From Clostridiales bacterium (GTDB taxonomy: Bacteria > Bacillota > Clostridia > Christensenellales > Pumilibacteraceae): a DNA stretch of 64,000 bases. The stretch covers positions 1 through 64,000 of the forward strand of contig SVHU01000011.1 in assembly GCA_015055625.1 (NCBI GenBank), given 5' to 3'. The translations under genes and the position numbers were made by a program. Each line of letters starts with the position of its first letter. Position 1 is the stretch's first letter. This document shows positions 3,679 through 27,160 of the stretch, in pieces. The notes beneath the pieces were generated by a model. The model did no database searches, was not told the DNA's origin, and saw nothing but the letters and a program-made list of their open reading frames with translations.

Positions 3679-5154
3679 TTATCTGACTAGTTTGAAGTTT
3701 ATCTCGGTTAGCTTCTTGCAGTTATATTCTATCGTTTTGTAAATTTTATTTACTACTGCAATTGCATCTTTTTTGCTACCAATATTATGCGATCCATTAA
3801 CGTCTGCGTGCGCATAAAAATTTCGTGTTGCAAAGTACTCTTCATACAACGCCGCCATAACCTCGCTATACACCACTCCGCACCTGTTTTGGTACGATTC
3901 TTTGAGTACGTATGCTCCATTTTGCGACTTTTCATAAGCTTGACCAATCATTTTTACAGTAATGTTTTTACTCTTTAGTAAGTCGAAAATAAAATTTTCA
4001 AGCCCTTTAAAAGGCGATAGTAAAAACATCGAATATTCATAATGATCCACGGCTTTTTCCAATTCTCTCATTCCGCTAGCAAGGTCATTTTTCTCTTGTG
4101 CGGAAAGAAACTGAAGCGCCGACGGCATTTTGTTTTTTAATATAACAACGTAGTCATCCAGTTGAACTTCACCGGATACCGACGCATATATTTCTCTTCC
4201 GCCAAAGGAAAGGAATACTTCTTTTATGCCAGGAGTAGCTTCTCCGCTTATATCCAAAGTTCCGCTCTCTTGCATATAATTAATTTCGCATTGCTTATCG
4301 CCAAGTATTACCACGTAGCGATTATCGGAATTATTTTTGGAGTAAGAAGAACGCAAAGTATTGATTTTTACTTCGTCGTCGTTACGTATTTTGTGCATTG
4401 CTTTTGCAAACGAAAGCGGATAATAGTCAGATATTACGGAATACGTTCCACTTCTGCCCTTTTGAGGCTCCGCTTTTGGCACAACAATCTTCTCTTCCTT
4501 TGCAATGCGTTCTTGTTGCTGTTTTTCGAGTTTTATCTCTTGCTTAGAAAACTTCGTTTCTTGCTTTAACTCCTGCTTAGAACGCTTGTCTTTTGCTTTG
4601 GATTGGTCTTTTTGATTTTGCTTATTTTCTTTCTTCTGTTTTTCCTGTTTTTGCACAGGCTTTTGCTGCTGTTTTTCCTTTTTGGTCTTTTCCTGAAGCT
4701 TTTCTTGCTTCTTTTCCTTTTGTTTTTCTTCTTTTTTAACCTTTTTAGGATCTTCTTGAGGCTTTTCTTTTACCTTTTCGCCCTTTTTATCCTTTTTTGA
4801 AAACAGCTCAGTAAAAAAATTTTTCTTCGGATTTTCTTCGGATTTGTTTTGTTGGGGCTTTTCCTTTGTCAGCTTTGCTACCTTTTCTTGCTTTTTGTTA
4901 TCACCAATTAATGTAGAAAGCTTTTTTATTGCGTTTTCTTGCGCAGTAACGGTAAGCATATTAGCCTTAACGTCATAAACAAGAACAACTTTCTTGTTGT
5001 CATATAAAAGTCCCGTTTTGTCAAAATGACTTTTTTCTGAATGAGGAGTGTGAGTAACTTTTTTAAAACCGAGATTAGTTGCTTGTTCCGAAAGCGTCAG
5101 ATACCTTTCGTAAGTAAAATTTTTGTATTCTTTTCTCTCGGGTATTACTCCCAT
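3679..5154 (-). CDS. RnlA-like HEPN ribonuclease with Lys/Glu/Gln-rich linker
   Basis: A 491-residue protein resembling RnlA, the RNase LS toxin. Three parts are visible: an N-terminal compact domain (1-86); a highly charged Lys/Glu/Gln linker (about 88-225) likely to be helical or disordered; and a C-terminal half with a strand-rich domain (about 238-345) then a helical HEPN domain (about 350-485). The HEPN catalytic motif R-x4-H is Arg444 to His449 (RNFYAH). From memory, E. coli RnlA has RHSLFH at the equivalent place, and the surrounding order (YSM..L....GLE/IEG..LKSK, then G-Y-L) matches. E. coli RnlA is 357 residues and lacks such a linker. No RnlB-like antitoxin lies on either side. AGGAGG at about 5159-5164 fixes the start. 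Expected activity: mRNA cleavage in phage defence or stress (inference). Confidence 0.72.
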   Translation of the reverse strand: MGVIPERKEYKNFTYERYLTLSEQATNLGFKKVTHTPHSEKSHFDKTGLLYDNKKVVLVYDVKANMLTVTAQENAIKKLSTLIGDNKKQEKVAKLTKEKPQQNKSEENPKKNFFTELFSKKDKKGEKVKEKPQEDPKKVKKEEKQKEKKQEKLQEKTKKEKQQQKPVQKQEKQKKENKQNQKDQSKAKDKRSKQELKQETKFSKQEIKLEKQQQERIAKEEKIVVPKAEPQKGRSGTYSVISDYYPLSFAKAMHKIRNDDEVKINTLRSSYSKNNSDNRYVVILGDKQCEINYMQESGTLDISGEATPGIKEVFLSFGGREIYASVSGEVQLDDYVVILKNKMPSALQFLSAQEKNDLASGMRELEKAVDHYEYSMFLLSPFKGLENFIFDLLKSKNITVKMIGQAYEKSQNGAYVLKESYQNRCGVVYSEVMAALYEEYFATRNFYAHADVNGSHNIGSKKDAIAVVNKIYKTIEYNCKKLTEINFKLVR

Positions 5155-5187
5155 AAAACCTCCTTGAAAAAAGAGTAAATTTATTAA

Positions 5188-5223
5188 AACCGAGCTATTC
5201 CATTTTTATGAAACAGCCCGGTT
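5188..5223 (-). terminator. Terminator after surface-protein gene
   Basis: Nine-pair stem aaccgagct/agcccggtt (one G-U) with a T/A-rich tail on the minus strand. It lies between the surface-protein stop and the HEPN gene's ribosome site, so the HEPN gene may be expressed only by read-through or by an unseen local promoter. Confidence 0.5.
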
Positions 5224-24168: not shown

Positions 24169-24776
24169 TTGTACGCCTCCTTTGCAATCTCTAACAATTC
24201 TTTATTCTTTTTTGATGGATATAGCGCGGAATACTTTTCAATCTCCGCCTCTATTTTCATCTTCCTCAATCCGTCTTTTTGTTTATAGAAATACCCCTCT
24301 ATCTTCGCAATCTCATCAAGCGCACACTCGCCCTGTTTTGCGCAGATAATATCATAAAAAATCCCGTCCTCTTCCACAACGAAATCCTTGTCAAAACAGT
24401 ACCCGTTGTTTGCTAGCCACACTCTAAGCTCTTCCACGTTTTTTTGCGCGCCCAAAATAAGATAAGGCTTGTACGAAATATTGGATAATATTCCTATAAT
24501 AGTGTTTGCGCCCATACCGCAAATTACGGCGGTATCGACTTGTTGTATTCCTTTTAGTCCGTCCGCAACGTGAAATTCCACATTGTCAAAACCTGCAAGT
24601 CTAACTCTAGCTTTTTGCAAGCACTTTTCGCTCACGTCGCAAGCAAGCACAAGATGCGCAAGATTATTCATTGCCACGTACTCGCTCACGATTCCGTGAT
24701 CACACCCTACGTCCGCAAACACGGAGCAAGGATTTACACACTCACAAATTGCTTTGAGCCTTTTATCAGTTAACAT
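24156..24776 (-). CDS. trmK: tRNA (adenine22-N1)-methyltransferase
   Basis: A 206-residue SAM-dependent methyltransferase that makes m1A22 in tRNA. The SAM motif is [14 protein letters not shown] near residue 20, then [12 protein letters not shown], and [10 protein letters not shown] carries the catalytic-loop region. A C-terminal coiled coil (about 155-206) matches the family. It directly follows rpoD, a conserved position in Bacillota. The ATG at 24776 is preferred, overlapping rpoD by 11 bases; a GTG at 24782 is possible. Confidence 0.93.
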
Positions 24777-26082
24777 AATCACGAAGCTTCTTACTTCTTT
24801 GAGGATGACGAAGCTTTCTAAGCGCTTTTGCCTCTATCTGTCTAATACGTTCTCTCGTTACGCCGAACTCTCTTCCAACCTCTTCCAAGGTTCTAGAATG
24901 TCCGTCGTCGATACCATAGCGAAGTCTTAATACCATTTCCTCACGAGGAGTAAGGGTATCGAGAACAACCATAAGCTGTTCTTTGAGGATAGAAAAAGTT
25001 GCAGCGTCTTGAGGTGAAGATGCGTGATCGTCCTCGATAAAGTCGCCAAGATGCGAATCTTCCTCCTCGCCAATAGGTGTTTCGAGCGATACTGGATCGA
25101 GCGAAATACGCTGAATTTCACGAACACGTTCGGTAGTAATACCCATTTCCTGAGCAATTTCTTCAGGGAGAGGGTCGCGTCCGAATTTTTGAACAAGCAA
25201 TCTCGTGGTACGAGCAAGCTTATTGATTGTTTCTACCATATGAACAGGAATACGAATAGTACGAGCCTGATCGGCAATGGCTCTAGTTATTGCCTGTCTA
25301 ATCCACCAAGTAGCGTACGTAGAGAAACGATATCCTCTCGTGTAGTCAAACTTTTCAACAGCCTTCATAAGACCCAAGTTTCCCTCTTGAATAAGGTCCA
25401 AAAAGAGCATTCCACGTCCAACGTAACGCTTTGCAATAGACACAACAAGTCTTAAGTTTGCCTCTGACAAGCGCTTTTGAGCTTCAATGTCGCCTTCCAT
25501 CATTCTCTGCGACAACTCCAACTCTTCTTCGATTGTAAGGAGCGGAACTTTACCAATATCTTTAAGATATACCTTAACAGGGTCGTCAATACTGACTTCC
25601 GCCATAATCTTGTCGATATCGTCGTGCAAAAGATCTGCCGTATTATTAATAACAGTAATTCCGTTTTCGTCCAAAATACGGAAAACTTCGTCCATTTCTC
25701 TTGCATTTGCTTCACATTCTACCGCTATTTTTGCGCCAACCTCGTCGTAAGTGAGCTTACCATGCTTTTTACCTACGGCAATAAGACGCTTAATCTCGTT
25801 TTGAATTTTTTCACTCAAAACAACAGGAGAATCATCTACAACCGTTGTAGCAGTTTTTAACGTGGTTGTGCTTTTTTGCTCAGCCTTTTCTCCTATAACG
25901 ATATCATTAGCGGAAAGTCCTGCCAAAATATCCTCAATTTGGTCGGGGGTTACTTTAATTCCCTTAAGCGCAACGTTAACATCATCGTAAGTAAGCTCGC
26001 CTTTCTTTTTATAAATACTAGTGAGCGTATTTATAATCTTGTAAGTGCTACTTTTTTCCATATAAGTGCTACTTTTTTCCAT
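24766..26082 (-). CDS. rpoD: Primary sigma-70 factor
   Basis: A 438-residue housekeeping sigma factor. Region 1.1-like segments occupy about 1-150; region 1.2 is [17 protein letters not shown]; region 2 includes the canonical [27 protein letters not shown]; region 3 and a standard region 4.2 helix ([21 protein letters not shown]) follow. All residues known in E. coli to contact the -10 (Tyr430, Trp433, Trp434, Gln437, Thr440 equivalents) are present. The first seven codons are an exact tandem repeat (MEKSSTY twice), so two in-frame ATGs lie 21 bases apart; the upstream one has the GGAGG. It overlaps the sigma gene before it by 14 bases. Confidence 0.95.
26062..26082 (-). repeat. 21-bp tandem duplication at the rpoD start
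   Basis: Bases 26062-26082 are repeated exactly at 26041-26061, adding seven codons and a second ATG. Only the upstream copy has a ribosome site next to it. Confidence 0.85.
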
Positions 26083-27160
26083 TTTTTTCCTCCGTCGACA
26101 CTTTCTTGTCGAGCTCTTGTTTTTGTTTGTCGTAATAGTAAATCAGTTCTTTGTTAAAAGCTGGGTACCTAAGTTTTGCCAGCGCTCTTTGTTCAATTTG
26201 TCTAACACGCTCTCGCGTAACGCTGTAAATAGAAGCTATTTCTTCAAGGGTTTTAGGTGCGTCGTCATCTATTCCAAACCTTAGTTTTATAATAGATTGC
26301 TCCGAAGCCGAAAGCTTGCCAATCGCACTTTTTGCTAAACGCGCAAGCTCCTGTTTTTCGGTTAAAACGTCTGGTCTTTCACCATCGCTTGCTTCCAAAA
26401 AATCAAGAAGAACACTATCCTCTTCATCACCTACGGCATCATAGATTGACACAGGCTTGTGGCGCAATAACAAATATTGCGTTATCTTATACCTACTCTC
26501 GCCCATAGCTTTTTCTAGATATCCAATATCGGGATCGTTTCCGTATTCCATGCTGTACGTTGATATTATTTTTCCGAGTTTCTCCACTCGCTCTCTAACG
26601 TACGCGGGAAGTCGAACCGTCCTTCCTTCGTCACTAATCGTTCTTACTATTGCTTGTCGTATCCACCAAGTAGCGCAGGTTGAAAATCTAAATCCCTTGT
26701 CCGGATCAAACTTTTCCGTGGCTTTCATAAGCCCTAAATTTCCGCTTTGGATCAAATCATCAAACTCCACTCCTCTATTTGTATATCGTTTGGCAACCGT
26801 ATATACAAGTCTAAGATTGGACAAAACAAGTTTCTCTTTTGCTTTTTTATCACCCTCGCGTATTTTGTACGCAAGAGCCATTTCTTCTTCCGCCGTAAGC
26901 AAAGGCGCGTTCACTTCGTAGCCGATCTCTAGGTCATGTGCCTCTTTAATATCTTCTGGAGCTAAAACCAGAATATCTCTTTGGGCTAATAAATCTAATA
27001 CCTCATCGGTTAGTTTAGCATCCGCATTGCACTTTGATATAAGCGTAGAATAAACATCGTCGGTGGTAAGCGCTCCTATCTTTTCTGCTTTTTCAATAAG
27101 CAGTTCAACCTCTTTTTCAATAAGATTTTTACTATTATCAGAATTCATCTGCGCCACCAT
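26069..27160 (-). CDS. Second sigma-70 factor, RpoD paralogue
   Basis: A 363-residue group 1/2-type sigma factor placed between dnaG and rpoD. It has a short region 1 (about 1-75), region 2 with [27 protein letters not shown], region 3, and region 4.2 [20 protein letters not shown]. Relative to rpoD two -10-contacting positions differ: Cys replaces the Tyr430 equivalent and Val replaces the Thr440 equivalent; the -35 helix is nearly unchanged. It overlaps dnaG by 23 bases and rpoD by 14, so it is expressed with both. Start could be 27160 or the in-frame ATG at 27148. Confidence 0.88.

Follow-up and report, generated by a model that had tools for sequence, protein, structure and literature searches.

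Introduction

RnlA (RNase LS) is an RNA-cutting phage-defence toxin of Escherichia coli, and toxin RNases are usually viewed as sporadic genes kept in check by an antitoxin. The HEPN domain of the E. coli protein carries both its toxicity and its dimerisation and is toxic in E. coli when RnlB is missing, and the NRD binds RNase HI and, via RNase HI, the antitoxin RnlB (PMC5308261). Moreover, according to Anantharaman et al. 2013 (PMC3710099), the TBP-like domains of the RNase LS family are thought to touch RNA:DNA hybrids, by comparison with RNase HIII.

In the present analysis, a window of 64,000 nucleotides (the whole stretch of DNA that was analysed) from a Clostridiales bacterium of the Pumilibacteraceae (assembly GCA_015055625.1, contig SVHU01000011.1) was found to encode a genuine RnlA-family protein that is well conserved (Table 1) and that a preliminary description had called a solitary RnlA-like HEPN ribonuclease. 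Here, family refers to a GTDB-type family, corresponding to the NCBI family Pumilibacteraceae.

Table 1. Positions of the RnlA-like gene, its protein domains and motifs, and the neighbouring features in the window
Feature	Position	Strand	Basis
RnlA/LsoA-type HEPN protein without antitoxin, 491 aa (P0001)	3679..5154	-	ATG start; profile, fold and structure matches
NTD, N-terminal TBP-like domain, residues 6-83, β-α-β-β-β-β-α, pLDDT mostly >90	4906..5139	-	AF2 model; full-length Foldseek alignment to RnlA 6y2p_A
Lys/Glu/Gln-rich disordered linker, residues 86-237, net charge about +0.15 per residue	4444..4899	-	AF2 model; linker comparison
NRD, second TBP-like domain, residues 238-316	4207..4443	-	AF2 model; PF15935; LsoA profile match from 5hy3 residue 93
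HEPN (Dmd-binding) catalytic domain, residues 334-484	3703..4155	-	PF19034; LsoA profile match; AF2 model; Foldseek
K383-x2-E386, counterpart of RnlA R255/E258	3997..4008	-	E in 62/62 homologues; LsoA alignment
R444-x4-H449 HEPN active-site motif (RNFYAH)	3808..3825	-	R and H invariant, 62/62 homologues
AAGGAGG Shine-Dalgarno sequence, just upstream of the ATG	5159..5165	-	Sequence itself
Strong terminator-like hairpin between the surface-protein gene and the RnlA-like gene	5188..5223	-	z = -6
Secreted Ig-like surface protein, 1076 aa, C-terminal TM segment	5245..8475	-	Directly upstream of the RnlA-like gene in 43/49 loci
Presumed homoserine dehydrogenase (hom), syntenic housekeeping neighbour	8651..9907	-	Synteny; named from reading its translation
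Presumed type III pantothenate kinase (coaX), syntenic housekeeping neighbour	9904..10689	-	Synteny; named from reading its translation

Domain architecture and active site

The Pfam model of the RnlA HEPN domain (PF19034) matched residues 338-451 of the protein (E=2e-6, 28.6 bits, with a curated cut-off of 27) and all 21 homologues searched at E≤0.01, and PF15935 matched four of those 21. LsoA (PDB 5hy3) was reached by phmmer with E=0.002, and the profile of 21 relatives aligned to it over NRD and HEPN with E=6.5e-14, setting R-x4-H on R-x4-H and the R-x-x-E of LsoA on K383-x-x-E386. AlphaFold2, run on the alignment, predicted two β-α-β-β-β-β-α domains, a low-confidence linker and a helical HEPN domain. 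With this model, RnlA or LsoA made up the ten best PDB matches of Foldseek (10/10), and they were again the best PDB matches of the C-terminal 256 aa alone, although TM-scores reached only about 0.5, as the domains are placed differently than in RnlA/LsoA. Thus, judging by the domain order in the AlphaFold2 model and the Foldseek alignments, the linker is inserted between the NTD and the NRD of RnlA. These results bear out the RnlA-like layout given in the preliminary description, as well as its charged segment of roughly 140 residues, which extends over residues 86-237, is disordered and separates the two TBP-like domains. The structure prediction that it had proposed gave an RnlA-like fold; the homologue search recovered the same architecture across the family, with a fixed housekeeping locus as neighbourhood. 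As the architecture recurs and E386, R444 and H449 are kept in all 62 homologues, the likeness is more than chance. In two relatives from termite gut (L050 and L051), the NRD seems to have been lost or replaced by low-complexity sequence.

The active residues of E. coli RnlA are R255, E258, R318 and H323, and the mutants R255A and R318A are named in the titles of matched PDB entries. The motif at Arg444-His449 had been numbered correctly and both residues proved invariant, as were Y374, S375, K401, G404, Q405, Y437, E439 and Y440 in the same set. With the RnlA-like fold, neither of the two outcomes that the preliminary description had named as refuting it came about. Position 383 was Arg in 59 homologues and Lys in three (3/62), including the genus of the window. 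From E386, R444 and H449, RNase activity may be inferred, though perhaps a very weak one, or else RNA binding may be the main function of the protein. A non-catalytic, RNA-binding descendant would agree with the Lys at this otherwise conserved Arg in the window's genus and with the loss of activity in some HEPN proteins (PMC3710099), but it is very improbable, as the three residues have stayed invariant across 62 diverged homologues.

Distribution and inheritance in the Pumilibacteraceae

The RnlA-like protein was present in 65 of the 74 Pumilibacteraceae genomes and in 42 of the 43 good ones (completeness ≥90%, contamination ≤5%). Loci with a taxon name include those of Pumilibacter muris, P. 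intestinalis, Anaerocaecibacter muris and Candidatus Protoclostridium. Every carrier genome had a single copy, except for one with two copies (G006). This genome is a metagenome bin (HAN098) with 7% contamination, in which the copies lie at L135 6916-8426 and on L139, one of the frames being broken. Outside the family, a match was found in one of approximately 360 genomes that were searched in the order, and two matches besides the window's own came from 391 genomes sampled across the class; taken together, two of the sampled genomes beyond the family carried a relative. No homologue was found in plasmids, phages or viral contigs, and a mobile element or phage as the source of the copy now present was rejected.

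The distances between HEPN domains were correlated with those of all five neighbours compared (Mantel r of 0.82 for pyrG, 0.54 for coaX, 0.82 for hom, 0.89 for purA and 0.71 for the surface protein, each above the best of 2000 permutations), and between 9 and 24 splits were common to the HEPN tree and the neighbour trees, compared with at most two by chance. Hence, the sporadic mobile distribution of RnlAB was not what was observed, given the near-complete presence in good genomes, the fixed locus and the congruent trees. Furthermore, the HEPN domains of the window and its sister species were 94% identical with dN/dS of 0.03-0.04, and hom was likewise 94% identical with dN/dS of 0.04, so that the HEPN domain is under purifying selection at a housekeeping level.

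A family-fixed defence enzyme has to be weighed at this point. Infection would release it, and in healthy cells the linker, some host factor or a low activity would keep it inactive. RnlA and LsoA do act against phage T4 (PMC5308261, PMC7180214), and the linker turns over fast, with 41% identity between the window and its sister species vs. 94% in the HEPN domain. However, this anti-phage role is unlikely for a near-universal, mostly single-copy and vertically inherited gene with a HEPN dN/dS of 0.03, a housekeeping locus and no mobile context, and the PADLOC defence models gave no meaningful match, only one to the composition of the linker (E=0.074).

The gene was lost in one 1.1-Mb genome (G025) and kept in its congener (G028). 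At the former locus (L162 8380-8577), it has disappeared precisely from between the surface-protein gene and murB, so that coaX, the surface-protein gene and murB now follow one another, only about 200 bases separating the latter pair, which amounts to a natural knockout. In addition, the gene was absent beside the surface-protein gene in two genera (g13 and g18). The gene is thus selected and useful but, given the clean loss and these absences, not indispensable.

Other RNases of the family were also surveyed. RNase Y was present in 40 of 41 family genomes, which rules out the replacement of a missing RNase Y, and since the usual RNase repertoire is present, there is no obvious vacant job, for instance in mRNA decay. 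RNase HI, which stimulates RnlA in E. coli, was found in 36 of 41 family genomes vs. 78 of 81 in the order sample; being equally common across the order, its co-occurrence is uninformative as support for a partnership.

Genomic context and absence of the antitoxin

No RnlB gene was found adjoining the RnlA-like gene or elsewhere in its genome, in agreement with the lack of a partner stated in the preliminary description, and no Pumilibacteraceae genome (0/74) had an RnlB match (PF15933) above the cut-off. Sub-threshold matches in two genomes (G004 and G006) were rejected as chance, with 17 bits and a position inside frames of more than 1000 aa. As positive controls of this genome search, RnlB was found in both G074 and G686; 14 named control genomes gave no RnlB. 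These two genomes hold the outside relatives (L151 and L167, respectively), in both of which the RnlB gene lies directly downstream (36 and 79 bits with PF15933), and the pair of G686 sits among prophage-like genes. The window gene is not an RnlAB toxin-antitoxin system, because the partner that defines such a system was looked for and is absent. Taken together, the RnlA-family identity, the core status and the absence of RnlB are firm, and we hold them with high confidence.

In about 20 family loci, the gene order was, with variations, coaX - hom - Ig-like TM surface protein - RnlA-like gene - pyrG - purA, pyrG being directly downstream in 33 of 64 loci. The hairpin ahead of the RnlA-like gene has a 16-bp stem and a folding energy of -28 kcal/mol, and similar hairpins were seen by eye after the surface-protein gene in L046 and L162. 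Thus, the terminator claimed at this place exists as a hairpin, but its U-tract is interrupted and it does not demonstrate the tight expression deduced from it. Indeed, the picture of a tightly expressed, stand-alone defence or toxin gene does not suit a near-universal, single-copy, vertically inherited gene that lies among housekeeping genes and has a perfect ribosome-binding site.

Control by a hidden antitoxin, whether unrelated, unlinked or made of RNA, might be expected from the toxicity of the RnlA HEPN domain without RnlB in E. coli (PMC5308261), which calls for some form of control. Against such a pair, at least 20 loci had no small conserved partner adjoining the gene, which is flanked by the Ig surface protein or by housekeeping genes (coaX, hom, pyrG and purA); behind the hairpin, the gene is equipped with a ribosome-binding site of its own; RnlB is absent from the 74 genomes; and where G025 cleanly lost the gene, no partner gene is visible at the locus. 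We therefore judge it quite unlikely. A two-gene system with the Ig-like surface protein, such as envelope stress signalling to RNA decay, is a weak and improbable proposal. The two genes are directly adjacent on the same strand in most loci, with congruent trees, but the terminator-like hairpin stands between them, up to three genes intervene in one clade and the surface protein persists where the RNase gene is absent. Moreover, synteny is just as strong for all the other neighbours, and the adjacency thus needs no explanation beyond a conserved gene order. The surface-protein gene stays at the same family locus even where the RnlA-like gene is missing.

Other features of the window were recorded. 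An Rfam scan of the window gave no match. On the minus strand at 11573-11767, beside glycyl-tRNA synthetase, lies a 64-aa Cys/Gly-rich ORF (MWNNGCCGGGCDSC...CCCK) with relatives of 54-75 aa in L041, L045, L046, L054, L085-L087, L101, L103, L106, L116, L119, L120, L125, L133 and L162, which makes it a conserved small Cys-rich protein of the Pumilibacteraceae. At 24766-27160, also on the minus strand, two overlapping tandem sigma-70 genes follow dnaG, one with regions 1.1-4 (438 aa) and the other without region 1.1 (363 aa); the first of them starts with a repeated heptapeptide.

The basic linker

Nearly all the linker residues had pLDDT values below 50. Among the homologues, linker length varied from 15 to 330 aa, neither sequence nor composition was conserved, and the linker evolved much faster than the domains. 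Nevertheless, when the linkers were compared among themselves, the net charge was positive in all 61 complete ones. AT-hooks (RKRGRPPK), one or two per linker, were present in all 18 rows of one well-supported clade that includes Anaerocaecibacter, and they correspond to one gain on the tree, confined to that clade. The core RGRP appeared in 17 linkers vs. 0.3 expected from shuffled linkers, which rules out a chance origin, and the Pfam AT_hook match was borderline (17.1 vs. 17.4 bits).

Of the roles suggested in the preliminary description (an internal brake, an RNA tether or a phage-triggered switch), only a nucleic-acid tether gained support, from the charge common to the linkers and from the AT-hooks of one clade. 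A brake or phage switch became unlikely with the fast evolution and the lack of conserved sequence and length. In particular, a brake would need conserved contacts, none of which were seen, and a specific sequence-coded brake was rejected, since the linkers differ in length, composition and sequence. The basic disordered linker with its AT-hooks is thus best read as a putative nucleic-acid tether, not a brake.

Discussion

The explanation that we favour, and consider probable, is that an RnlA toxin was domesticated as a resident, tethered endoribonuclease. An RnlAB-type toxin gene would have entered the ancestor of most Pumilibacteraceae, its antitoxin would have been lost or left behind, and the toxin gene would have become a chromosomal resident inherited like a housekeeping gene. 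The HEPN domain, presumably as a dimer, would cut RNA at the site formed by E386, R444 and H449, and the two TBP-like domains may position a substrate or partner (RNA, an RNA:DNA hybrid or RNase HI). The basic disordered linker would tether the enzyme to nucleic acid, through AT-hooks in one clade, and the tether so gained would limit where the enzyme acts. Self-control would then come from substrate restriction together with a weakened intrinsic activity, and not from an antitoxin. The points counted against domestication were a perhaps very weak activity or a mainly RNA-binding role, the presence of the usual RNase repertoire, the Lys at position 383 in the window's genus, the restriction of AT-hooks to one clade, the TM-scores of about 0.5, the clean loss in one species and the absence from two genera. 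More tentatively, it is possible that a toxin-antitoxin RNase became, in this family, a constitutive enzyme that needs no antitoxin and is tethered by the linker and its AT-hooks to the nucleoid or to nascent RNA and R-loops, for the routine co-transcriptional processing of RNA or RNA:DNA hybrids.

An RNase toxin has been kept, without an antitoxin, throughout the depth of the family, and the purifying selection on it reaches a housekeeping level. This offers a system for studying how toxins are tamed and what role the TBP-like domains of RnlA play, with culturable species on hand (Pumilibacter and Anaerocaecibacter) and a natural loss for comparison.

Comparison with known systems

Among described proteins, other fusions of the RNase LS family, in which HEPN is joined to RNase H/viroplasmin or to a TBP-like domain (Anantharaman et al. 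2013, PMC3710099), share the combination of an RNase LS HEPN with TBP-like domains, and the excerpted text of that source makes no mention of a long basic linker, an AT-hook or core-gene status. The nearest relatives outside the Pumilibacteraceae are the clostridial RnlA-RnlB pairs L151 and L167, which have the same HEPN family; unlike the window protein, their RnlA is 346-364 aa long, has no linker and is followed directly by RnlB. LsoA, from an E. coli plasmid (PDB 5hy3), is the best sequence match of the family profile, but LsoB keeps it in check and T4 Dmd blocks it, whereas the window protein has a long linker and no partner. Finally, RnlA (RNase LS) of E. coli K-12 (PDB 4i8o, 6y2p and 7aex) resembles the window protein in the order NTD-NRD-HEPN, the HEPN fold, the R-x4-H motif and the position of R/K-x2-E, with an identity of just 10-14% in the Foldseek alignments. 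The window protein differs in the missing RnlB and in a disordered basic linker of about 150 aa between NTD and NRD, and it is the product of a vertically inherited core gene, whereas RnlA belongs to a sporadic toxin-antitoxin locus.
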